A program made the translations under genes and the position numbers. From Streptomyces sp. CB03234 (GTDB taxonomy: Bacteria > Actinomycetota > Actinomycetes > Streptomycetales > Streptomycetaceae), in assembly GCF_001905885.1 (NCBI RefSeq), contig NZ_LIYH01000004.1, positions 496,001-560,000 on the forward strand: a stretch of 64,000 bases of DNA, in the 5' to 3' direction. The notes beneath the pieces were generated by a model. That model was not told the DNA's origin. It worked only from the letters and a program-made list of their open reading frames with translations, and ran no database searches. The stretch's first letter is position 1. Each line of letters begins with the position of its first letter. This document shows, piece after piece, positions 13,687-64,000 of the stretch.

Positions 13687-14648
13687 GAGCGCACCTCCGT
13701 CATCACGCGCTCCCAGTCGTCCAGGAAGCGTTTGAGCCCGTACCGTTCGAGCGCCGCCTGCCGGGCCCGCGCGCCGTCCTCGGCAGCCGCCTCCGGCTCG
13801 TCGAGATAGCGCCGGGCGGCCCGCGCCAGCACCTCGGGCCGCGTCGACAGCGTCCCGGCGCCGGCCGGCACCGCCTCGATGGCCTCCGTCGTGGCCAGCG
13901 CCACGACCGGCATGCCCAGGTGCATGGCCTCCAGCAGGGACAGGCCCAGCGACGTCCAGCGCACCGGATGCAGGTACAGCCGCCGCTCCGCCATCGCCGC
14001 GTGCAGCTCCCGCTGCGGCAGGTCGGCGCTGCGGCACCGCTCCTCGGGTACGCCCAGGTGCGCGGCGAGGCCCTCGGTACGCATGCCGAACACGTCCAGC
14101 GGCGCCGCCTCGCACAGCGCGGGCAGCAGATCCGTACCGGTGTAACGGCCCCTCCGCACCGGCTCGTTGACGACGACCGCCGCCCGTGCGAGGCGCCCGG
14201 TGTACAGGTGCCCCGGGTCGACGATCCCGTGCTCGATCACCTCGGTCCGGGCCGAACCGCTGTCCCAGAACAGCCGGTTGAAGTGCGTGACGTGCACCAG
14301 CGTCAGGCCGGTGCGGTCGGCGCACGGATGACGGGTGTCCGGGACGTTCCCGTCGGGCGCGTTGTGCTCCAGGTACACCGCCGGTACGTCCCGTCCCGGT
14401 CGGCGCCCGCCCAGCCAGCGCTCGGCCAGCTCGAACTCGTGCGGCCGCTGGAGGACCACCAGGTCCACCGGCGCGTCCCGCGACTGCTCGGGCGTCACCT
14501 CCCGTACCGAGTCGGGCCAGGTGAACGTACGGGCCCGGCCGCGTCCGTCCGGACCGCGGTCCGGAAGTACCGGCACCAGGTAGGTGTGGGGCCCCTGGAC
14601 GAACGCCGTCGTCCAGGACCCGTGCACATGCCACAGCAGGATGTTCAT
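13683..14648 (-). CDS. GT4-like glycosyltransferase
   Basis: A 321-residue GT-B-fold enzyme. It opens with MNILLWHVHGSWTTAFVQG, has a central VYLEHNAPDG and HVTHFNRLFWDSG region, and a C-terminal nucleotide-sugar site TSLGLSLLEAMHLGMPVV with the conserved Glu. Homologues occur next to GT4 and carbamoyltransferase genes in streptomycete saccharide loci. Start and stop are fixed by context: ATGA overlap with the downstream GT4 gene and 16 bases after the carbamoyltransferase stop. Sugar donor and acceptor are not predictable. Confidence 0.82.
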   Translation of the reverse strand: MNILLWHVHGSWTTAFVQGPHTYLVPVLPDRGPDGRGRARTFTWPDSVREVTPEQSRDAPVDLVVLQRPHEFELAERWLGGRRPGRDVPAVYLEHNAPDGNVPDTRHPCADRTGLTLVHVTHFNRLFWDSGSARTEVIEHGIVDPGHLYTGRLARAAVVVNEPVRRGRYTGTDLLPALCEAAPLDVFGMRTEGLAAHLGVPEERCRSADLPQRELHAAMAERRLYLHPVRWTSLGLSLLEAMHLGMPVVALATTEAIEAVPAGAGTLSTRPEVLARAARRYLDEPEAAAEDGARARQAALERYGLKRFLDDWERVMTEVRS

Positions 14649-53917: not shown

Positions 53918-54697
53918 CTAGCGGGTGTCCTCCGGTCCCGGAGGTTCGGCGGCGGCCGGGTCGAGGATGCGGGTCAGGAAGTGGCGGGTACGTTCGTGCC
54001 GTGGGTCGCCCACGACCTGGGCGGCCGGGCCCTCCTCGACGATCCGGCCGTCGTCCATGAACACCACCCGGTCGGCGACCTCCCGGGCGAAGCTCATCTC
54101 GTGCGTGACGACCATCATCGTCATGCCCTCCGCCGCCAGCATCCGCATCACGGCCAGCACATCGCCGACCAGCTCGGGGTCGAGCGCCGACGTCGGCTCG
54201 TCGAACAGCATCACCTCCGGGCCCATCGCCAGCGCCCGCGCGATCGCCACCCGCTGCTGCTGCCCGCCCGACAACTGCGCCGGATAGGCGTCCGCCTTGT
54301 CCGCCAGCCCGACGCGCGCCAGGTTCTCCCGGGCGACCTTCGCCGCCTGCTCCTTGCCGCGCCCCAGCACCCGCCGCTGCGGCAGCGTGAGGTTCTCGGT
54401 CACGGTCACGTGCGGGAAGAGGTTGAACTGCTGGAACACCATGCCGATCCGGCGGCGTACGGCGTCGATGTCGACGTCCAGGTCCGTGACCTCCGTACCG
54501 CCCACGAAGACCTGCCCCCTGGTCGGCTCCTCCAGCAGGTTCACGCAGCGCAGCAGTGTCGACTTGCCGGAGCCGGACGGCCCGATGACGCACACCACCT
54601 CGCCGGTGGCGACGTCCAGGTCGATGCCGCGCAGCACCTCGTTGTCGCCGAAGGACTTGTACAGCCCCCGGATCTCGATCTCGTTCCGTGTCGGCAT
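53918..54697 (-). CDS. Polar amino-acid ABC transporter ATP-binding protein
   Basis: A 259-residue ATPase of the GlnQ/HisP class: Walker [11 protein letters not shown]-loop [13 protein letters not shown], signature [16 protein letters not shown], Walker [14 protein letters not shown]-loop [15 protein letters not shown] after the Q-loop is typical of amino-acid importers. It powers the permease whose gene lies nine bases upstream. An extra ~15-residue Pro/Glu-rich C-terminal tail is present. Confidence 0.93.
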
Positions 54698-54706
54698 CGG
54701 TATCCC

Positions 54707-55507
54707 TCACTTGGCCCTGGCGGCACGGGCCTCGAGGCGGCGCACCACGAAGCTCAGCGGAATCGTCACCAGCAGGTAGCACAGGCCGGCGACGAGGATG
54801 GGTGTGGAGTTGGCGGTCTGGCTGGCCAGGTCCCGGCCGAACTTCGTCAGCTCCCGTTCCTGAAGTGTCACCCCGAGGAACAGCACCAGCGAGGAGTCCT
54901 TGAACAGCAGCACCAGTTCATTGGTGAGCGGCGGGATGATGATCCGGTACGCCTGCGGGAGGATCACCGACACCATCGCGCGGGCGTGCGAGAAGCCCAG
55001 CGAACGCGCCGCCTCCATCTGGCCCTTGGGCACCGCCTGGATGCCCGCCCGGATCGTTTCCGCCATGTACGCCGCGGCCACCAGCCCGAGGCCGAGGGCG
55101 ACCTTGCCGTACGTCCCGCCGGGGATCTCCGTACCCGGGAACGCGAGCGGTACGGCGACGCCCACGAAGATGAAGATCAGCAGGGCGGGCAGGCCGCGGA
55201 AGATCTCGATGTAGACGCTCGCGGCCCACCGGTAGGGCGCCACCGACGACAGCCGCATCAGGGCGATGACCAGGCCCAGGACGAGGCCGAAGGCGAACCC
55301 GGAGAGGGTGTACACCACCGTGTTGCGCAGCGCGGTGGTGATGATGTCCGGGAAGAGCCGCCCCGCCAGGTCCGCCTGCGCGAACTGGTTCTGCAGCCGG
55401 TCCCAGTCGGCCAGGACGGCGATCAGGACGACGACGGCGACGAAGACCGCGTACTGAACGCCCCGCGAGATCCGCCGCCGCTGCCGCCTCGTCAGCCGTG
55501 AGGTCAC
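54707..55507 (-). CDS. Polar amino-acid ABC transporter permease
   Basis: A 266-residue membrane protein of the HisMQ/GlnP class with about five helices (VQYAVFVAVVVLIAVLA; VYTLSGFAFGLVLGLVIALM; LLIFIFVGVAVPLAF). It carries the EAA loop EAARSLGFSHARAMVSVILPQAYRIIIPPL that contacts the ATPase and NELVLLFKDSSL. The GTG start at 55507 overlaps the binding-protein stop (GTGA), although an open frame continues upstream to 55537. Confidence 0.9.
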   Translation of the reverse strand: MTSRLTRRQRRRISRGVQYAVFVAVVVLIAVLADWDRLQNQFAQADLAGRLFPDIITTALRNTVVYTLSGFAFGLVLGLVIALMRLSSVAPYRWAASVYIEIFRGLPALLIFIFVGVAVPLAFPGTEIPGGTYGKVALGLGLVAAAYMAETIRAGIQAVPKGQMEAARSLGFSHARAMVSVILPQAYRIIIPPLTNELVLLFKDSSLVLFLGVTLQERELTKFGRDLASQTANSTPILVAGLCYLLVTIPLSFVVRRLEARAARAK

Positions 55508-56355
55508 GACAGGCCCTTGGGCAGCGGGCCGATCCACTGTTCGTAGAGCTTGTTGTACGTGCCGTCCGCCTTGGCGTCCTTGATCGCCTTGTCGATCGCG
55601 GCGCGGAGCTTGTCGTTGCCCTTCTTCACCGAGAAGCCGTACTGCTCACCGGTCTCGATGTTCTGCCCTAGCGCGAAGGCGTCGGCGTTCGCCTTGTCCT
55701 TCAACCAGCCCTGCACGACCGGGTAGTCGATGACGACGGCGTCGACCTGGCCGGTGCGCAGCCCGTTGAGCACGGCGTCGGAGCTCTCGAACGCCACCGG
55801 GTCGAAGCCCTGGGACGTGGCGTAGCTCTCCCCGGTGGTCTCGGCCTGGGCGCCCAGCTTCAGCTTCTTCGCCTTGACGTCCGCGAGGCTGGTGGCGCCG
55901 CTCTTCTTGGTCGCCAGCAGGGCCTGGGTGGCGTCGAAGTAGGGGACGGAGAAGTCGACGTTCTTCTTGCGCTCCTCGGTGATGGTCATCCCGGCGGCGG
56001 CCAGGTCGCACTCGCCGGAGTTGAGGAACGCGCCGGTCTTGAAGTTCTCGAACGGTGTGTCGAGGATCTTCTGTTCGACCTTCAGGTTCTTGGCGACCAG
56101 GTCGATCAGCGCCACGTCGAAGCCGACGATCTCGCCGTCCTGCTCGAACTGGAAGGGCGGGTACGGCAGATGGGTGCAGGTCGTCAGCTTGCCCTTCTCC
56201 ACCACGGGCACCCCGCCCGCCGCCTCACCGGGACCCTCGTCGCCGTTCCCGCACCCGGTGGCGACGAGCAGCAGCCCGGTCGCCGCGGCACAGGCGATGA
56301 AGACGGTACGGGGGGTGCGGTGGGCGCGTCGCTTGGCGCCGGCAGTCCTCGTCAC
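55504..56355 (-). CDS. Amino-acid ABC transporter substrate-binding lipoprotein
   Basis: A 283-residue periplasmic-type binding protein exported as a lipoprotein (lipobox LVATGC, about residues 26-31). Family signatures are CTHLPYPPFQFEQDGEIVGFDVALIDLVAKNL, DLAAAGMTITEERKKNVDFSVPYFDATQALL and VDAVVIDYPVVQGWL, as in glutamine/arginine/cystine-type binding proteins. The exact amino acid is not predictable. GTG 56355 has GGAGG six bases upstream. First gene of the three-gene importer operon, divergent from the cyclitol cluster. Confidence 0.9.
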   Translation of the reverse strand: MTRTAGAKRRAHRTPRTVFIACAAATGLLLVATGCGNGDEGPGEAAGGVPVVEKGKLTTCTHLPYPPFQFEQDGEIVGFDVALIDLVAKNLKVEQKILDTPFENFKTGAFLNSGECDLAAAGMTITEERKKNVDFSVPYFDATQALLATKKSGATSLADVKAKKLKLGAQAETTGESYATSQGFDPVAFESSDAVLNGLRTGQVDAVVIDYPVVQGWLKDKANADAFALGQNIETGEQYGFSVKKGNDKLRAAIDKAIKDAKADGTYNKLYEQWIGPLPKGLS

Positions 56356-56713: not shown

Positions 56714-57865
56714 ATGTACCCCACCACCGCACCGACCACCACTCCACCGACCACCACTCCGCCGACCGCCATCTCCATGGACCGCGCCATCCTCGCCGGC
56801 AACCTCCACTTCCCCGTCCTCGTCCGGGGCGGCGACGCCACCTGGCCGGAGCTGACGCGGATCGCCACCGACCTGGCGGCGGACGCGTTCTGGCTGGTCA
56901 CCGACGCCGGACTGCCCCGCGGCCACACCGCCCGGGTGCTGTCCGCGCTCGGCCCGGCCGCCCCGACGCGCGTCCTTCGGGCCCCCGCCCCGGACACGGC
57001 CTGGGACGAGACCCCCACGCCGGACACGGTGGTCGTCGCCCTCGGCGGCAGCACCGTCATCGAGGCCGCCGCCCGGCTGGCCGCCGGCACCCCGGACCGG
57101 CCGCGCCTGCTCCTCGTGCCCACCACGCCGCGGGCCATGACCGACACGGCACTGAGCCTGGAGCACCCGGCCGCCCACGGCCTGGCGCCCACCCTGGTCT
57201 GGGCCCAGCTCGACCTGCTGCGCACCCTGCCGCCGGACGAACTGCGCACCGGGCTCGCGGCCCTCGTCAGGAACGTCCTGGCGGTCAGCCCGTCCTTCTA
57301 CGACACGGCCGCCGCCCTGCTGCGGCCCGACGTGACCGGCTTCGACGCCCCCCTCATGGCACGCGTCGTCGCCCTGAACGCCGACATCCGCGCCACGCTC
57401 ATGTACTACGACCCGAGCGAACAAGGCCCGGCCATGGCGTTCAGTTACGGCCGCACCGTCGCGGACGCCCTGCTGTCCATGGGCGCCGGGCTGTCCGAGG
57501 GCGACGCAGCCGCGCTCGGGATGCTCGTCGCCGCACGGGTCGCCGTCCTGCTCGGGCTGCTCGACCCGGCCGCCGAGCGCGCCCACCACGAGCTGATGGC
57601 CCGCTGGGGAGCACCGCGCAAGCTGCCCGCCCCGCTCACGGTGGACACCGTCGCGGCGGTCCTCCGGCGTGGCGCGGCCACCGGCCCGGTACCGGCCCCG
57701 TACGCCGGACCCGCCCGGATGGTGCTGCTCGACGGGCTGGGCGCCCCGCACGTCGTACGCGGCCGGATGCTCACCGAAGTCGACGACGACGTACTGCGCC
57801 CGGCACTCGACGTGATCGCCCCCCACACCCCCGTATCCGAGACCGACCTGATCACCATCGACTGA
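56714..57865 (+). CDS. Degenerate sugar-phosphate-cyclase-like protein (probable pseudo-enzyme)
   Basis: A 383-residue protein with the dehydroquinate-synthase fold: VVVALGGSTVIEAAARLA, LLLVPTTPRAMTDT, LDLLRTLPPDELRTGLAALVRN, FSYGRTVADALLS and LGMLVAARVAVLLGLLD align with successive conserved blocks. Yet the three metal ligands of the family are replaced: Glu by Ala183, first His by Arg247 and second His by Glu262. The KTGVN substrate block is also absent, so it should not catalyse cyclisation. The Thr/Pro-rich first 20 residues may be untranslated if ATG 56777 is the start. It is nine bases before an intact cyclase gene, hinting at a partner or scaffold. An iron-type alcohol dehydrogenase is less likely. 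Confidence 0.75.
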   Translation: MYPTTAPTTTPPTTTPPTAISMDRAILAGNLHFPVLVRGGDATWPELTRIATDLAADAFWLVTDAGLPRGHTARVLSALGPAAPTRVLRAPAPDTAWDETPTPDTVVVALGGSTVIEAAARLAAGTPDRPRLLLVPTTPRAMTDTALSLEHPAAHGLAPTLVWAQLDLLRTLPPDELRTGLAALVRNVLAVSPSFYDTAAALLRPDVTGFDAPLMARVVALNADIRATLMYYDPSEQGPAMAFSYGRTVADALLSMGAGLSEGDAAALGMLVAARVAVLLGLLDPAAERAHHELMARWGAPRKLPAPLTVDTVAAVLRRGAATGPVPAPYAGPARMVLLDGLGAPHVVRGRMLTEVDDDVLRPALDVIAPHTPVSETDLITID

Positions 57866-57873
57866 GGAGAACC

Positions 57874-59070
57874 ATGTTCGCCCACCACACCGACCCGCAC
57901 GGACTGTTCACCCACGGCGGCCCGGTCCGCAGCTGGACCGTCAGCACCGCCAAACCGGTCAGCTACCGCGTCGGCTTCGCGCCCGGCGTCTTCAACCCGT
58001 CCAACAGCGCCCTCGCCAAGGCCGGAGCCGTCGACGGCGGCCCGGCCCCGGCCCGGCGGCTCCTCGTCGTCGAGGAACGCGTCGACATGCTGTACGGCGA
58101 CCTGATCCGCGCCTACTGCGACGCGCGCGGCCACGACGAGTACGCGATCCACGTGCTGCCCGCCCACGAGCGGCTCAAGACCATGGACTCCGTCTTCTCC
58201 GTGGTCGCCGCGATGGACCGGTTCGGCCTGGACCGCCGCCGGGAGCCGGTCGTCGCGGTCGGCGGCGGCGTGCTGCTCGACATCGTCGGCCTGGCGTGCA
58301 GCCTGTACCGGCGCAGCACCCCCTACGTCCGCGTACCCACCACCCTCATCGGGCTGGTCGACGCCGGCGTCGGCGCCAAGACCGGCGTCAACTTCGGCAC
58401 CGGCAAGAACCGGCTCGGCACCTACCACCCCGCCACCGAGACCCTGCTCGACCCCGGCTTCCTCGCCACCCTGGACGAGCGGCACGTCAGCAACGGCATG
58501 GCGGAAATCCTGAAGATCGCCCTGATCAAGGACGCCGACCTCTTCGCACTGCTGGAGACCCATGGCGCCCGGCTCGTCGCCGACCACTTCCAGCCGGCCG
58601 GGGCGACGGGCGACGAGGTCCTGGGCAGAGCCGTGCACGGCATGCTCGAAGAACTCCACGACAACCTGTGGGAACACAAGCTGGAACGCGTCGTGGACTA
58701 CGGGCACTCCTTCAGCCCCACGCTGGAGATGCGGGCCCTGCCCGCCCTGCTGCACGGCGAGGCCGTCGCCCTCGACATGGCGCTCACCACCGTCATCGCC
58801 TGCCGGCGGGGCCTGATGAGCACGGATCAGCGCGACCGCGTCCTGAACGTGATGCGCACCCTCAGGCTGCCCGTCACGCACCCCCTGTGCGAACCGGGCG
58901 TCCTCAAGGAGGCGCTCGCCGACACCGTCCGCCACCGCGACGGCAAGCAGCGCCTGCCGCTGCCGGTCGGCATCGGCGGCTCCGTGTTCGTCAACGACCT
59001 CACCACCGGCGAACTGGCCCGCGCGGCCGGTGACCTGGCCGCCCTGGGGGAGGTGACCTCCCATGCGTGA
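57874..59070 (+). CDS. C7-cyclitol synthase (2-epi-5-epi-valiolone-synthase-like sugar phosphate cyclase)
   Basis: A 398-residue cyclase that by family converts sedoheptulose 7-phosphate into a C7 cyclitol (2-epi-5-epi-valiolone or an isomer). Intact blocks are AVGGGVLLDIVGLACSLYRR, VPTTLIGLVDAGVGAKTGVN and YHPATETLLDPGFLATL. Predicted metal ligands are Glu211 (GMAEILKIAL), His278 (DYGHSFSP) and His294 (LLHGEAVALDM). The SLYRR and SFSPTLEM wording fits the EEVS/EVS/DDGS group rather than housekeeping AroB, and no shikimate genes are nearby. AGGAG precedes the ATG. Which stereoisomer is made cannot be told from motifs. Confidence 0.85.
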   Translation: MFAHHTDPHGLFTHGGPVRSWTVSTAKPVSYRVGFAPGVFNPSNSALAKAGAVDGGPAPARRLLVVEERVDMLYGDLIRAYCDARGHDEYAIHVLPAHERLKTMDSVFSVVAAMDRFGLDRRREPVVAVGGGVLLDIVGLACSLYRRSTPYVRVPTTLIGLVDAGVGAKTGVNFGTGKNRLGTYHPATETLLDPGFLATLDERHVSNGMAEILKIALIKDADLFALLETHGARLVADHFQPAGATGDEVLGRAVHGMLEELHDNLWEHKLERVVDYGHSFSPTLEMRALPALLHGEAVALDMALTTVIACRRGLMSTDQRDRVLNVMRTLRLPVTHPLCEPGVLKEALADTVRHRDGKQRLPLPVGIGGSVFVNDLTTGELARAAGDLAALGEVTSHA

Positions 59071-59767
59071 GGCAGTCGTCGTCGCCGATGTGCACGCCCC
59101 CGCCGACGTCCACGGCGTACACGCCGCCGAAGGTCACTCCCGCTGGACGTGCCTCGCCCGCCGCACCGGGCTCCACGGCGGCTGGGAGGCCGTCGAATGG
59201 GCCTGGCTGCCGCCGGGCGGGGTGAGCGGGGAGCACCTGCACTCCCGCACCGAGGAGCTGTACTTCCTGCTCTCCGGGCGCGGCGAGATCACCCTCGACG
59301 GACGCCCGCTCCCCGTCAGGGCGGGCGACACCGTCCTGACGGGCCTCGGCACCCGCCACGCGCTGCGCAACACCGGGCGCCGGCCCCTGGCCTGGCTCGT
59401 CGTCGAACTCACCACCACGGACACCACGAAGGAGCAGCAGATGGACCGTCACCGCAGTGCCGTCATCCGTGACCTGCGCCGCCACGGCCCGCTGGACGCC
59501 TCCACCGTCCTCACCGGCCCCCTGCGCACGGTCCGCCTCACCCGACTGCCGGCCGGCGGCAGCACCGCGCTCGACGCCCACGGCGAGGAGCACACCGTGT
59601 TCATCACCGGAGGGTCGGGCACCGCCCGCGCCACGGGCCGGCACGTGTCCGTGACGCGGGGCACCGCCCTCACCCTGCCGCTCGGCACATCCGTGTGGCT
59701 GAGCGCGGGCTCGGAGGGGCTGGAGTACTTCCACGCCGCGCTCGCCGTACCGGAGGGACCCCAGTGA
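59063..59767 (+). CDS. Bicupin protein
   Basis: A 234-residue protein with two cupin-like halves. The N-terminal half has GEHLHSRTEELYFLLSGRGEITLDG (metal-binding His, His, Glu) and ARHALRNTG-like GTRHALRN; the C-terminal half (from about residue 127) is a less conserved cupin without the full metal set. Cupins in cyclitol loci could be isomerases, epimerases or dioxygenases; the reaction here is unknown. It starts eight bases inside the cyclase gene and ends by GTGA overlap with the next cupin gene. Confidence 0.78.
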   Translation: MREAVVVADVHAPADVHGVHAAEGHSRWTCLARRTGLHGGWEAVEWAWLPPGGVSGEHLHSRTEELYFLLSGRGEITLDGRPLPVRAGDTVLTGLGTRHALRNTGRRPLAWLVVELTTTDTTKEQQMDRHRSAVIRDLRRHGPLDASTVLTGPLRTVRLTRLPAGGSTALDAHGEEHTVFITGGSGTARATGRHVSVTRGTALTLPLGTSVWLSAGSEGLEYFHAALAVPEGPQ

Positions 59768-60261
59768 TCATCCACTCCGGCGACCGGGCCTCCGTCCTCC
59801 TCGGCCCCGGCGGCGAACGGACCACCATCCGCTGCCTCGCCCGGCGCGGCATGCTCCACAGCGAGTGCGAGGCCTTCGACGAGGTACGCCTCGACCCCGG
59901 CACCCGCCTGGACCTGTCCGGCCGGGACGGCACCGAAGCCGCCTGGTACGTCCTGTCGGGCTCGGTCACGCCCGATGTCACGCCCGATGTCACGGCGGAC
60001 GCCCCGCCCGGCGCCCCGCCCGGCGCCCCGCCCGGCGCCCCGCCCGAGGACGCGCCCGGCGCCCCGCCCGACGGCCCCGTCCGTGACGCCCCCGCGCCGC
60101 TCACCGCGCGCGCCCTCGTCCTCGGCCGGCACGGGGACCGCGTCCGGCTCACCGCCGGCCCGGACGGCGCCGCCCTGCTGTGCCTCACCCTCACCCCGCC
60201 CGCCGTCACCCGCACCCTGCCGCCCCGTACCCCCAGCATCCCCGAGGAGCACCCGTCATGA
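59764..60261 (+). CDS. Cupin-like protein interrupted by Pro/Gly/Ala repeats
   Basis: A 165-residue protein. Beta-strand-rich flanks (VIIHSGDRASVLLGPGGERT, EAAWYVLSGSV at the N side; ALVLGRHGDRVRLTAG at the C side) resemble half of a cupin. Between them (about residues 68-110) lies an insert with VTPDVTPDVT and PPGA repeats that would be disordered. No complete metal-binding set is visible. The GTG start overlaps the bicupin stop, and its TGA overlaps the VOC gene start. Possibly it pairs with the bicupin. Confidence 0.65.
   Translation: MIIHSGDRASVLLGPGGERTTIRCLARRGMLHSECEAFDEVRLDPGTRLDLSGRDGTEAAWYVLSGSVTPDVTPDVTADAPPGAPPGAPPGAPPEDAPGAPPDGPVRDAPAPLTARALVLGRHGDRVRLTAGPDGAALLCLTLTPPAVTRTLPPRTPSIPEEHPS
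59965..60048 (+). repeat. In-frame 12-bp tandem repeats inside a cupin gene
   Basis: GTCACGCCCGAT occurs twice at 59965-59988. GCCCCGCCCGGC occurs three times at 60001-60036 with a diverged fourth to 60048. Both are multiples of three and encode the VTPD and APPG-type insert. Such arrays can change copy number without breaking the frame. Confidence 0.85.
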
Positions 60262-60803
60262 CCGCACACCCGCAGCTGGTGCCCGGCGTCACCGCCGTCC
60301 ACCACGTCGCCTACACGGTGCCCGACCTCGACGAGGCGGTCGGCTTCTTCACCGGCGTCCTCGGCGCCGAACTCGCCTACCGGACCGGCCCGATAGCCGA
60401 CCCGGACGGGCAGTGGATGGCCCGCCAGCTGGGCGTCCACCCGCACGCCGTCGCCCACATCGCCATGCTGCGCCTCGGCCCGGTCACCAACGTCGAGCTG
60501 TTCGCGTACGAGGCGCCCGGCCAGCGCCGGGCGTACCCCCGCAACAGCGACTGGGGCGGCCACCACCTCGCCCTGTGGACCGACGACTTCGACGCCTCGC
60601 TGCGCCGGCTCACCGCGCACGACGGGGTCCGCCCGCTCGGCGAGCCGCAGACGGTCGGCGACGGGCCGATCGCCGGGACCCGCTTCCTCTACCTCCGCAC
60701 CCCCATCGGCCTGCACATCGAACTCGTCCAGGCGCCCGCCCGGCTGCCATACCACCACGAGACACCGGTCCGTCTGTTCGACCCCGCGGGAGGCACCTCA
60801 TGA
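60258..60803 (+). CDS. VOC-superfamily protein, candidate cyclitol epimerase
   Basis: A 181-residue glyoxalase/vicinal-oxygen-chelate protein: AVHHVAYTVPDLDEAVGFFTGVLGAEL, HIAMLRLGPVTNVELFAYE, WGGHHLALWTDDFDASL and IGLHIELVQAP give the two beta-alpha-beta-beta-beta modules with metal-binding His and Glu. In cetoniacytone and validamycin pathways, VOC proteins (CetB, ValD) epimerise 2-epi-5-epi-valiolone; the neighbouring cyclase makes that role plausible here. A dioxygenase or unrelated lyase remains possible. Overlaps its neighbours by ATGA at both ends. Confidence 0.78.
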   Translation: MTAHPQLVPGVTAVHHVAYTVPDLDEAVGFFTGVLGAELAYRTGPIADPDGQWMARQLGVHPHAVAHIAMLRLGPVTNVELFAYEAPGQRRAYPRNSDWGGHHLALWTDDFDASLRRLTAHDGVRPLGEPQTVGDGPIAGTRFLYLRTPIGLHIELVQAPARLPYHHETPVRLFDPAGGTS

Positions 60804-62338
60804 ACGGGACCATCTGGGGGCGGGGCGCTCCGCCCGTCGTCATCCAGGAGCAGGACACCTACGACGCCGACGTCGCCGTCATCGGATCGGGCGCCGGGGG
60901 CTCCACCCTCGCCTGGGCCCTGGCCTCCACCGGCGCCCGCGTCCTGGTCGTCGAACGCGGCGGCTTCCTCCCCCACGAGGAGGCCAACTGGTCGCCCGAC
61001 GCGGTCTTCGGCGAGGGCCGCTACCACAATGCGGGCACCTGGCACACCGCCGACGGCCGCCCCTTCACCCCCGCCAACCACTACTACGTGGGCGGCACCA
61101 CCAAGGTGTACGGCGCCGCCCTGCCCCGGCTCCGCGTCAGCGACTTCGACGCCACCGAGCAGCTCGAAGGGACCTCGCCCGGCTGGCCGTTCTCGTACGC
61201 CGACCTGGAGCCGTACTACGCCGAGGCCGAACGCCTCTACCGCGTCCACGGCCAGGACGGCGCCGACCCGACGGCGCCGCCGCGCTCGGAGCCGTATCCC
61301 CATCCGCCCGTCCCGCACGAGCCGGTCATCGGCGAGCTGGCGGCCAAGCTGACGGACCAGGGGCTGCACCCCTTCCCGGTCGAGCTGGGCATCGACCTGG
61401 CCGCACGCGGCGCCTGCCTCCGCTGCGGTACGTGTGACGCCTTCCCGTGCCGCGTCGACGCCAAGAGCGACGCGGAGACCCGTGCGCTGCGGCCCGCGCT
61501 GCGCACCGGGACGGTCCGGCTGCTGACCCGTACCAGGGCCGAGCGGCTGCTGACCGACCCGGCCGGGCGCCGGGTCACCGCCGTCGACGCCGAACGGGGC
61601 GGTAGGACCGTACGCATCTGGGCGGGCACCGTGGTGGTGTCCTGCGGGGCCATCAACTCCGCTGCCCTGCTGCTGCGTTCGGGCGGGGCGGCGCACCCGG
61701 ACGGGCTGGCCAATGGCAGCGGGCTCGTCGGCCGCAACCTGATGGTGCACAACAACAGCGTGCTCATGGCCGTCGACCCCCGGCGCCGCAACCCCGTGAC
61801 GTTCCAGAAGACCCTTGCCGTCAACGACTTCTACCACCCCCTCGGCAACCTCCAGCTGATGGGGAAGGTCCACGAGGCCGCGCTGGCCGCCTCCCACCCG
61901 CACGTGCCGCGCCGGATCCTCGGCGCCGTGGCCGCGCGCAGCGTGGACTGGTGGGTGATGTCCGAGGACCTGCCCGACCCGGACAACCGGGTCCTGCCCG
62001 GCCCGGACGGCGGTGTCATCCTGCGCCGGCGGCCCACCAACACCCGCGCTCACCGCGGCCTGGTGCGCGGCGCGGCCCGCATGATGCGGCGCGCCGGCTA
62101 CCCGCTGGTGCTGCGCCGCCGGATGGGCGTGGAGGCCACCGGCCATCAGTGCGGCACGACGGTCGCCGGACTCGACGAGACCCGCTCCGTCCTCGACCCG
62201 CACTGCCGCAGCCACCAGGTCCGCAACCTGTTCGTCGTCGACGGCGGCTTCTTCCCCTCCTCCGCCGCCGTCAACCCGACGCTGACCATCGCCGCCCAGG
62301 CACTGCGTACCGCCCGCGAAGGCGGCGTGCTGCCCTGA
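60800..62338 (+). CDS. GMC-family FAD-dependent oxidoreductase
   Basis: A 512-residue flavoprotein: VAVIGSGAGGSTLAWALASTGARVLVVERGG (FAD), YYVGGTTKVYGAALPR, the central RCGTCDAFPCRVDAK Cys-rich loop, a MGVEATGHQCGTTV active-site region with the His and the C-terminal NPTLTIAAQALRTA with the Asn. GMC enzymes oxidise primary or secondary alcohols to carbonyls with oxygen or another acceptor. Here the substrate is most likely a hydroxyl of the C7 cyclitol. The ATG overlaps the VOC stop (ATGA). Confidence 0.86.
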   Translation: MNGTIWGRGAPPVVIQEQDTYDADVAVIGSGAGGSTLAWALASTGARVLVVERGGFLPHEEANWSPDAVFGEGRYHNAGTWHTADGRPFTPANHYYVGGTTKVYGAALPRLRVSDFDATEQLEGTSPGWPFSYADLEPYYAEAERLYRVHGQDGADPTAPPRSEPYPHPPVPHEPVIGELAAKLTDQGLHPFPVELGIDLAARGACLRCGTCDAFPCRVDAKSDAETRALRPALRTGTVRLLTRTRAERLLTDPAGRRVTAVDAERGGRTVRIWAGTVVVSCGAINSAALLLRSGGAAHPDGLANGSGLVGRNLMVHNNSVLMAVDPRRRNPVTFQKTLAVNDFYHPLGNLQLMGKVHEAALAASHPHVPRRILGAVAARSVDWWVMSEDLPDPDNRVLPGPDGGVILRRRPTNTRAHRGLVRGAARMMRRAGYPLVLRRRMGVEATGHQCGTTVAGLDETRSVLDPHCRSHQVRNLFVVDGGFFPSSAAVNPTLTIAAQALRTAREGGVLP

Positions 62339-62355
62339 CACGTAAGGAGAGCCCC

Positions 62356-63477
62356 ATGCCTTCCGCCACCGCCGCAGTGGTCCGTGCCCCCGGCCACGCC
62401 TTCACCCTCGAAGAGATACGGGTCGACGCGCCCCGCCCGGACGAGGTCCTCGTGCGCGTACGCGCCGTCGGCATCTGCCACACCGACCTCAGCGTCCGCG
62501 CCGGGCACACCCCCTTCCCCCTGCCCGCCGTCCTCGGCCACGAGGGCACCGGCACGGTCGAGGCCGTCGGCGCCGCCGTCACCTCCGTCGCGCCCGGCGA
62601 CACCGTCGTGATGAGCTTCGCCTCGTGCGGGGCCTGCCCGGAGTGCCTGACGGGCCACCCGGTCAGATGCGCCCACTGGCCGGCGCTGAACCTGTTCGGC
62701 GGCAGCCGCCTGGACGGCAGCCCCACCCTGCGCGGAACGGGCCGGCACGCGGACGCCCCGCTGCACGGACACTTCTTCGGCCAGTCCTCGTTCGCGACGC
62801 TCGCCCTCGCCTCCGTACGCGATGTGGTGCCCGTGCCCGGAGACCTGCCGCCCCAGGTCGTCGCCCCGTTCGGCTGCGGCGTCCAGACCGGGGCGGGCGC
62901 CGTGCTCAACGTGCTGCGCCCCGAGCCGGGCCACACCCTCGCCGTGTACGGCACCGGATCGGTGGGCCTGGCCGCCGTCATGGCCGCCCGGCTCACCGCC
63001 GCCACCCGGGTCGTCGCGGTCGACCCCGACGCGGGGCGGCGGGCCCTGGCTCTCCGGCTGGGCGCCACCGACGCGGTCGACCCGGGCGACGCCGACCCCC
63101 TGGAGGTGGTGCGGGACCTGACGGGCGGGCGCGGCGCGGACCGGGCACTGGAGACGAGCGGTCTGCCGCGCGTGCTGCGCCAGGCGGTGGACGGTCTCGC
63201 CGTCGGGGGCGTGTGCGGGGTGGTCGGCGCCCCGCCCGCCGGGACGGACGTGTGTCTGGACGTACCGCGGATGCTCGACCGGGGGCCGCGGATCGTCGGC
63301 GTGAACCAGGGCGGTGTCGTGCCGCGCGTGTCCATCCCGGCCCTGCTGGACCTGTACCGGGCCGGGCGCCTGCCCGTCGACGCGATCGTGGAGACGTTCC
63401 CCTTCGCCGCGATCGAGGAAGCCGCGGCGGCCGCGACGAGCGGCAAGGTCGTCAAACCGGTGCTGACCATGCCCTAA
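62356..63477 (+). CDS. Zinc-dependent alcohol dehydrogenase (MDR)
   Basis: A 373-residue medium-chain dehydrogenase. The catalytic zinc site is GICHTDLSVRAGHTPFPLPAVLGHEGTG; the structural zinc site is SCGACPECLTGHPVRC with four Cys. Next is GCGVQTGAGAVLN and the NAD-binding YGTGSVGLAAVMAA followed by VDPDAGRR. The pattern resembles benzyl/aryl-alcohol dehydrogenases. It would oxidise or reduce an alcohol/carbonyl pair in the same pathway as the GMC enzyme. AAGGAG precedes the ATG; the gene follows the GMC gene by 17 bases and ends the cluster. Confidence 0.87.
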   Translation: MPSATAAVVRAPGHAFTLEEIRVDAPRPDEVLVRVRAVGICHTDLSVRAGHTPFPLPAVLGHEGTGTVEAVGAAVTSVAPGDTVVMSFASCGACPECLTGHPVRCAHWPALNLFGGSRLDGSPTLRGTGRHADAPLHGHFFGQSSFATLALASVRDVVPVPGDLPPQVVAPFGCGVQTGAGAVLNVLRPEPGHTLAVYGTGSVGLAAVMAARLTAATRVVAVDPDAGRRALALRLGATDAVDPGDADPLEVVRDLTGGRGADRALETSGLPRVLRQAVDGLAVGGVCGVVGAPPAGTDVCLDVPRMLDRGPRIVGVNQGGVVPRVSIPALLDLYRAGRLPVDAIVETFPFAAIEEAAAAATSGKVVKPVLTMP

Positions 63478-63525: not shown

Positions 63526-64000
63526 GTGAGTGAAGAAGGTGAAACTCCGGACGCGGCGGAGCGGCCCGTGCTCCGCACGCTCATCGTCGAAGACCACCCG
63601 CTGTTCCGGAACGGCCTGAAGTCCGCGCTGGAGAACCTCGGCGAGGTACTGGTGGTCGGCGAGGCCGAGACCGTCGCCGAAGTGCCCGACGCGGTGGGAC
63701 GGTGCCGACCGGACGTCGTCGTGATGGACCTGTCCCTTCCGGACGGCTCCGGCATCGAGGCGATCCGCCGGCTCGCCGAGCTCCATCCCGGGTTGCCGGT
63801 CCTCACCCTCACCATGTCCGACGACGACGGCGACCTGCTCGCCGCGCTCCAGGCGGGCGCGCGCGGCTACGTCGTCAAGGGCGCGAGCGCGGACGAGGTG
63901 CTGCACGCCGTGCGTACCGTCGCGGCAGGCGGCGCCGTGTTCGGCGCCGGAGTCGCCGCCCGCCTGACGGGGCTGGTCTCCGGCAGCCGGCGGCGCGACG
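63526..64000 (+). CDS. Response regulator, receiver domain (truncated by window edge)
   Basis: A two-component receiver open at the right edge (158 codons seen): VLRTLIVEDHPLFRNGLKSAL carries the acidic pocket, VVVMDLSLPDGSG the phospho-acceptor Asp, LTLTMSDDDGD the switch Thr and GYVVKGASADEVL the conserved Lys. The spacing is that of NarL/LuxR-type regulators, so a helix-turn-helix domain should lie outside the window. The GTG at 63526 has no Shine-Dalgarno sequence; TACCGT lies seven bases upstream, so it may be leaderless. It could be the pathway regulator of the adjacent cyclitol cluster. Confidence 0.85.
   Translation, partial: MSEEGETPDAAERPVLRTLIVEDHPLFRNGLKSALENLGEVLVVGEAETVAEVPDAVGRCRPDVVVMDLSLPDGSGIEAIRRLAELHPGLPVLTLTMSDDDGDLLAALQAGARGYVVKGASADEVLHAVRTVAAGGAVFGAGVAARLTGLVSGSRRRD

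Follow-up and report, generated by a model that had tools for sequence, protein, structure and literature searches.

A predicted cyclitol operon of Streptomyces with an EEVS-type cyclase, paired cupins, a putative pseudo-cyclase, and a linked two-component system

Introduction

Several natural product pathways are close to the gene cluster of Streptomyces sp. CB03234 analyzed here. The validamycin route, with ValA as its cyclase, uses kinase, aminotransferase, and pseudo-glycosyltransferase steps. In Actinomyces sp. Lu 9419, the cetoniacytone A cluster (MIBiG BGC0000283) reportedly contains the 2-epi-5-epi-valiolone synthase (EEVS) CetA and the vicinal-oxygen-chelate (VOC) epimerase CetB, a description that is said to go back to Wu et al. 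2009. The same study reportedly noted cet-like genes in Frankia alni ACN14a as well. In Actinoplanes, the BE-40644 pathway combines an EEVS with a UbiA-type prenyltransferase, starting from 2-epi-5-epi-valiolone with further modification of the ring (PMC5133447). The gabosines, COTC, and KD16-U1 are small C7 cyclohexenones of Streptomyces and potential glyoxalase inhibitors, according to PMC2635666. Our subject is a cluster of seven genes, designated PSE, CYC, CUP1, CUP2, VOC, GMC, and ADH, at 56714-63477 of a stretch of 64,000 nucleotides (contig NZ_LIYH01000004.1, positions 496,001 to 560,000) from the 7.77-Mb genome of this strain. The whole stretch is referred to as the window.

An EEVS and a VOC protein are common to the cluster and the cetoniacytone A cluster as described above, and the cetoniacytone-type pairing of an EEVS with an adjoining VOC protein that keeps two His and two Glu is present in the operon. 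ValA is the solved cyclase nearest to CYC and identical to it at all positions inspected, whereas none of the validamycin-type kinase, aminotransferase, and pseudo-glycosyltransferase genes occurs among the seven. A start from 2-epi-5-epi-valiolone would be common to the BE-40644 pathway and the window, but the seven genes include no prenyltransferase. Gabosines, COTC, and KD16-U1 exemplify the type of small C7 product without nitrogen which the gene set could give; among the open-access literature matches listed, we found no gene cluster that makes compounds of the gabosine or COTC type. Unlike the cetoniacytone cluster, the seven contain neither an aminotransferase nor an arylamine N-acetyltransferase of the CetD type (for CetD, see PMC11213898), and the GMC protein resembles FAD glucose dehydrogenases instead of being a pyranose oxidase of the CetL type (for CetL, see PMC4425429). 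We propose, with a probability of roughly 60%, that the cluster is an autonomous operon whose product is a small C7 compound without nitrogen, that it has its own two-component system, and that PSE is the partner of that system.

Results and discussion

Gene organization and the cyclase

All seven reading frames are intact and lie on the forward strand, with a GC content at third codon positions of 0.92-0.95 throughout. PSE ends 8 bases before CYC. The stretch from CYC to ADH (57874-63477) forms a tight operon, in which CYC and CUP1 overlap by 8 bases, the CUP1-CUP2, CUP2-VOC, and VOC-GMC junctions overlap by 4 bases each, and GMC and ADH are separated by 17 bases. An earlier note on this DNA, based on the letters alone, had described 4- to 8-base overlaps downstream of the cyclase, which applies to four of the five junctions but not to GMC-ADH. 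The gene set named there (cyclase, two cupins, VOC protein, GMC oxidase, and zinc alcohol dehydrogenase) was borne out by the intact frames and the matching Pfam families, with CUP2 recognized through the model of a homologue. Family-model searches likewise agreed with its statement that aminotransferase, glycosyltransferase, polyketide synthase or nonribosomal peptide synthetase (PKS/NRPS), and methyltransferase genes are missing, as none was found among the seven proteins; nor did Pfam searches of the seven reveal a prenyltransferase, transporter, or resistance gene.

CYC (57874-59070; Pfam DHQ_synthase and DHQS_C) had its best PDB match in ValA (4p53; 468 bits over residues 19-389). The next match was 5tpr (256 bits), which we take to be the desmethyl-4-deoxygadusol synthase (DDGS) of A. 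variabilis. In an alignment of 94 family members, CYC agrees with ValA at each of the 15 positions or motifs inspected, and 5tpr differs at three. The residue table shows that CYC retains E211, H278, H294, D163, K169, N179, and K214, which presumably have the roles usual for the family. D275 and H354, which we take to be two sites distinguishing the cyclase types, are the same as in ValA, and 5tpr has A and T at these positions. That two sites separating cyclase types exist is stated in PMC4426668. A quick-method tree of 92 rows grouped CYC with ValA and other EEVS (49 rows together with ValA) on a branch that was not starred, with a support of 85 in the Shimodaira-Hasegawa-like approximate likelihood ratio test (SH-aLRT). 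The 5tpr clade was separate with a support of 100, and the AroB of the same genome (L001) fell outside the EEVS group. As judged from its best structure match, residues, and tree position, CYC is a sedoheptulose-7-phosphate cyclase of the EEVS kind. The residues and the tree ruled out AroB and DDGS. The earlier note had also regarded CYC as a sedoheptulose-7-phosphate cyclase and had proposed a phylogeny with AroB references; CYC did not group with AroB, and the identification thus stands.

A conserved core shared with a cetoniacytone-like locus

CUP1 (59063-59767; Pfam Cupin_2, 78 bits) is a cupin with an HxH...E...H metal motif, whose residues H58, H60, E64, and H99 are kept in 90-93% of 30 homologues from 26 loci. 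CUP2 (59764-60261), a small protein with a Pro-Ala-Gly-rich insert, gave no Pfam match in the window and no match in a PHROGs search. It contains the conserved stretch CLARRGMLHSECE, with conserved residues read across 19 homologues. We count CUP2 as a cupin because an AlphaFold model of its homologue in the Archangium locus L040 (mean pLDDT 74) matched solved cupins with E values of 1.7e-7 and weaker. A tandem Pro-Gly-Ala-Pro insert of CUP2 (window 59980-60080) occurred in none of the five homologues of one alignment. VOC (60258-60803; Glyoxalase_4, 51 bits) keeps H16, E80, H103, and E155 in 87-100% of 30 homologues, and its PDB matches were weak, the named ones being mostly methylmalonyl-CoA epimerases. 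CetB, a 2-epi-5-epi-valiolone epimerase of the VOC family, binds its metal through two His and two Glu, and VOC is a candidate for the same function.

Related loci were drawn from samples of 392 genomes of the genus and 394 genomes of the class, in which relatives of CYC at E up to 1e-60 were detected in 52 and 20 genomes, respectively. A related-locus search of named genomes, covering close relatives only, provided 7 loci, and genes on comparison loci were called with a codon-usage script. To describe gene linkage, we used 48 loci other than the window, representing the neighborhoods of the stronger cyclase matches (E about 1e-95 or better, or split hits) after removal of L036 (same contig as L044) and L135 (a duplicate of L038). 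The EEVS letters were present in 47 of them (for L038 read from its duplicate), L146 lying outside the residue table. Homologues were recorded within 10 kb by tblastn at E up to 1e-6. CUP1 was found in 22 of the 48 loci, all of which (22/22) also contained CUP2 and VOC. Among the 26 loci that lacked CUP1, none had CUP2 and six had VOC, although absences on short contigs (e.g. L126, L129, L134, L141, and L142) may reflect truncation. The corresponding counts for ADH and GMC include weak matches, such as the ADH match of L046 (45 bits), which is no orthologue.

The core of CYC, CUP1, CUP2, and VOC was found in Streptomyces, in Nocardiopsis (L038), and in the myxobacterium Archangium (L039 and L040). 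Tailoring genes differed by locus and comprised GMC and ADH in clusters of the window type, a different ADH with a short-chain dehydrogenase/reductase (SDR) and often a KAS III-like gene, or FAD proteins of the berberine-bridge type. The KAS III-like gene of L038 and L109 might add an acyl group like that of COTC; the window cluster has no such gene. In one locus, L136, the core is accompanied by a DegT aminotransferase, an AMP ligase, a KAS III-like gene, and a protein similar to pyranose oxidases (405 bits), a combination that resembles the cetoniacytone set as reported. Since the EEVS-cupin-cupin-VOC core recurs there next to the aminotransferase, the pyranose-oxidase-like protein, and the AMP ligase, the window pathway is better seen as a putative amino-free member of a wider cetoniacytone-type group. 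The earlier note's separation of the cluster from loci of the cetoniacytone type was therefore not upheld as stated.

Tailoring enzymes and the proposed pathway

GMC (60800-62338; Pfam GMC_oxred_N and GMC_oxred_C) is predicted to be an FAD-dependent sugar or cyclitol dehydrogenase. Its best PDB matches were the FAD glucose dehydrogenases 8hdd and 6a2u (128 bits), and the nearest group comprised FAD glucose and fructose dehydrogenases. A CxxCxxCxxxxC motif as well as H449 and N492, the latter two presumably the catalytic pair, are kept in 7/7 homologues. The score of GMC against the pyranose oxidase model TIGR02462 was 50.6 bits at a cut-off of 544.9, and the GMC protein of L136 reached 405 bits, likewise below the cut-off. 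This score and the structure matches to FAD glucose dehydrogenases ruled out GMC as an orthologue of CetL. ADH (62356-63477; Pfam ADH_N and ADH_zinc_N) is a zinc alcohol dehydrogenase with PDB matches to 5tnx (346 bits, function unnamed) and to the benzyl alcohol dehydrogenase 1f8f (300 bits), followed by 195 bits for the next one (best 60 of 66 matches). The place of ADH is held by another gene in L045 (6410-7336) and L046 (6609-7532). The relationship of the L045 copy to extradiol catechol dioxygenases is a hint of an aromatic stage.

The protein families were assigned from sequence, and the reactions outlined here are those which such families would allow. In the first step, CYC would convert sedoheptulose 7-phosphate to 2-epi-5-epi-valiolone. 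By analogy with CetB, VOC may then epimerize this compound. GMC could oxidize a ring hydroxyl, and CUP1 and CUP2 might enolize and dehydrate the ring to a cyclohexenone or a polyhydroxybenzyl ring, after which ADH would interconvert a CH2OH arm and the aldehyde. Because of the VOC, cupin, GMC, and ADH families taken together with the dioxygenase-like gene of L045 and L046, the product is probably a small C7 enone or aromatic ring that bears a CH2OH or aldehyde arm. The small oxidized C7 cyclitol outside known pathways that the earlier note had predicted agrees with the EEVS, with the absence of genes for nitrogen, sugar, or methyl transfer among the seven, and with the absence of a described product from the open-access matches listed, but not in its separation from the cetoniacytone type. 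Among these matches, we also found no description of the cluster itself or of an EEVS-cupin pathway. The operon is compact and readily cloned, its core occurs in two phyla, and the chemistry of the paired cupins could be solved with six or seven proteins. Solving the action of the cupins on 2-epi-5-epi-valiolone could clarify the formation of C7 cyclitols that contain no nitrogen.

A putative pseudo-cyclase linked to a two-component system

PSE (56714-57865), with which the earlier note began its cluster without describing the gene, belongs to the 3-dehydroquinate synthase (DHQS) fold family. Its Pfam match was DHQS_C only, its best PDB match was the 2-deoxy-scyllo-inosose synthase (DOIS) BtrC (2d2x, 61.8 bits), and a PHROGs search of PSE gave no match. 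A predicted model of low confidence (mean pLDDT 58.5) matched DHQS and DOIS structures with a best E value of 4e-11; six of the 8 rows in its alignment are true cyclases, so the model leans toward the cyclase fold. By these sequence matches and this low-confidence model, PSE has the predicted fold of a sugar phosphate cyclase. A search at E up to 1e-10 detected PSE matches in 39 of the 392 genus genomes; the nine weakest were left out, 30 entered the residue table, and ten (10/392 genomes) formed the PSE clade with a support of 100. The zinc Glu, both catalytic lysines, and the GKN loop are missing in all ten members. The first zinc His is present in two (L009 and L010) and the second in two others (L012 and L016), and no member has more than one ligand. 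Compared with BtrC and other DOIS, PSE thus stands on the DOIS side of the tree but has neither the zinc ligands nor the two catalytic lysines nor the GKN loop, and as far as sequence tells it is a cyclase-fold pseudoenzyme from that side of the family. The residue losses ruled out a second working cyclase. An EEVS duplicate was ruled out as well, PSE being placed among DOIS-like proteins in the quick-method tree with its long branches. No paper on a dead sugar phosphate cyclase was found among the open-access matches listed.

The nearest relatives of PSE are proteins of L015, L017, and L018, which have all zinc and catalytic residues and two of which are followed by a CUP1 homologue (L053 and L054). 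DOIS-like sisters of PSE were seen in L051, L053, L054, and L182, with intact residues where these were read (L051, L053, and L054). In L053, L054, and L182, genes for a CUP1 homologue and an SDR come after the DOIS-like cyclase, and L053 also contains DegT aminotransferase, ATP-grasp, glutamine-synthetase-like, and MFS genes. We know of no product of these four loci.

Directly downstream of ADH lies a LuxR-type response regulator gene (RR; Response_reg and GerE domains) at 63526-64000 on the forward strand, which continues past the window edge and is complete in L004 (11526-12215). Outside the window, RR is followed by the sensor kinase gene HK (L004:12511-14556; HisKA_3 and HATPase_c). HK has 681 residues with eight hydrophobic segments ahead of the HisKA_3 domain in a simple hydropathy scan. 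RR and HK are conserved together with the cyclitol cluster. The tie of PSE to this two-component system had also been missed in the earlier note. At E up to 1e-130, HK matches occurred in nine of the 392 genomes, all within the ten that have PSE (hypergeometric 1.8e-17, with the cut-off set after the gap in the hit list had been seen and kinship among genomes ignored). At E 1e-50, 31/392 genomes had HK matches and all ten PSE genomes were included. The tenth PSE genome, G187, has no RR-HK pair near PSE (L050), and its best HK match (5e-108) is on another contig. PSE also occurs with RR and HK but with no EEVS beside them in L048, L049, and L052, all from the ten genomes, and in L181 from genome G725 of the class sample, where a gene for an A-PCP-TE protein lies between PSE and RR. 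Trees of PSE and HK for ten loci showed the same main groups, the placement of G725 being not settled.

These contexts weakly favor regulation as the putative role of PSE. It may be the partner of the two-component system as a non-catalytic protein that binds a ligand or serves as a scaffold, which is the weakest part of our proposal. PSE represents a testable case of a metabolic enzyme without catalysis that is still tied to a two-component system.

Points of weakness and alternative explanations

Several observations weigh against the proposed operon function. The putative role of VOC was derived from the function of CetB and four conserved residues. The resemblance between ADH and benzyl alcohol dehydrogenase is an indirect indication, as is the dioxygenase-like gene in sister clusters, and GMC, as its pyranose oxidase score shows, is not CetL-like. 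Genomes in the PSE-HK count are related and do not represent independent events. Streptomyces acidiscabies (L037) possesses the cluster, RR, and HK with no PSE within its 21 kb, and 22 more genomes have distant HK relatives (best E 4e-118 to 2e-51), among which a PSE of the clade occurs in G187 only (a weak PSE match in G164 was left out of this count). Hence, the HK family does not need PSE. Finally, PSE evolves faster than its neighbors. Ratios of nonsynonymous to synonymous substitution rates (dN/dS) among near relatives were 0.36-0.45 for PSE, 0.24-0.31 for CYC, and 0.20-0.22 for GMC, and far PSE pairs reached 0.84, with dS probably underestimated at such GC content. This difference fits weak constraint, too.

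Tentatively, PSE could have a wider function than that of a partner within one operon. PSE, the membrane-bound HK, the LuxR-type RR, and, at several loci, the gene for a small peptide directly behind HK might form a signalling module that is attached to unrelated biosynthetic loci. PSE would then work inside the cell as a sensor or adaptor, with the peptide as an external cue. In this scenario, which we regard as possible rather than likely, the module would serve EEVS cyclitol clusters, the A-PCP-TE protein of L181, and the arginine-enzyme locus L048.

It is unlikely that PSE is instead an obligatory subunit without catalysis that pairs with CYC in a heterodimer and tunes the activity of CYC. 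The two proteins belong to the same fold family, PSE is the first gene and ends immediately upstream of CYC, and both genes are present in six of the seven window-type clusters. However, the tree places PSE on the DOIS and not on the EEVS side. Moreover, each gene occurs without the other: PSE loci L048, L049, L050, L052, and L181 have no cyclase in 15-20 kb and belong to genomes outside the cyclase hit lists (E up to 1e-60), and the clusters of L037, Nocardiopsis, and Archangium have the cyclase without PSE.

We also give little credence to PSE being the decaying relic of a former second cyclase that survived by chance. Such decay would agree with the loss of catalytic residues and with a dN/dS above that of neighboring genes, but no internal stop was found in the ten clade members or in one further genome, the dN/dS among near relatives is the one given above (0.36-0.45), several catalytic losses are common to all ten, and PSE is linked to one kinase type across different gene contexts.

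With regard to the pathway itself, the cluster could be what is left of an aminocyclitol cluster, or a part of one, with the missing steps encoded elsewhere in the genome, as the cetoniacytone-like L136 has the same core together with an aminotransferase. This seems improbable given that the window's gene set recurs in six other loci (ADH is missing in L045 and L046, and PSE in L037) with cyclases 75-92% identical to CYC, which indicates conservation and not decay. No aminotransferase was seen by eye beside the six loci, for which no model search for one was made. A salvage route with a catabolic or detoxification intermediate as its product is very improbable, since EEVS makes a cyclitol and does not consume one, and the dedicated two-component system and the patchy distribution of the cyclase (52/392 genus genomes) fit specialized metabolism, even though FAD sugar dehydrogenases, cupins, and alcohol dehydrogenases occur in catabolism, too, and Pfam revealed no transporter or resistance gene among the seven.

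Flanking genes and small open reading frames

A divergent ABC transporter (53918-56355) was considered as part of the cluster and dropped, because its binding protein adjoins the cluster in L043 and L044, the two nearest relatives, but not in L045, L046, and L047; for ABC genes near L037, identity with this transporter was not shown. Beyond RR and HK, open reading frames (ORFs) were named by eye only and include acetyltransferase-like, LysR-like, and other ones. Beside both Archangium clusters, we noticed by eye a glucose-6-phosphate-dehydrogenase-like ORF (L039:6519-7994 and L040:6491-7954), which could feed the pentose phosphate pool.

A conserved ORF of 52-55 residues follows HK in three loci (L004:14616-14783, a short distance outside the window, L149:3604-3762, and L036:18660-18821). 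It has a purine-rich stretch before its start, a hydrophobic middle, and a C-terminal CIPIC, gave no Pfam match, and is a candidate signal peptide. Similar ORFs with two Cys close to the end occur after HK in L037 and L047, and none was seen after HK in L045 and L046. In loci that have PSE without an EEVS, small ORFs with repeated FPGGGTP or FPGPK occur directly after HK (L048:14017-14217, L052 about 13900-14164, and L181:17653-17877). Small secreted-looking proteins with two Cys were encoded near the PSE loci L049 (6253-6576), L050 (10958-11185), and L052 (14515-14781), and weak matches to this two-Cys family (E 4e-6 to 0.009) were located beside distant HK relatives in L160 and L162-L170.

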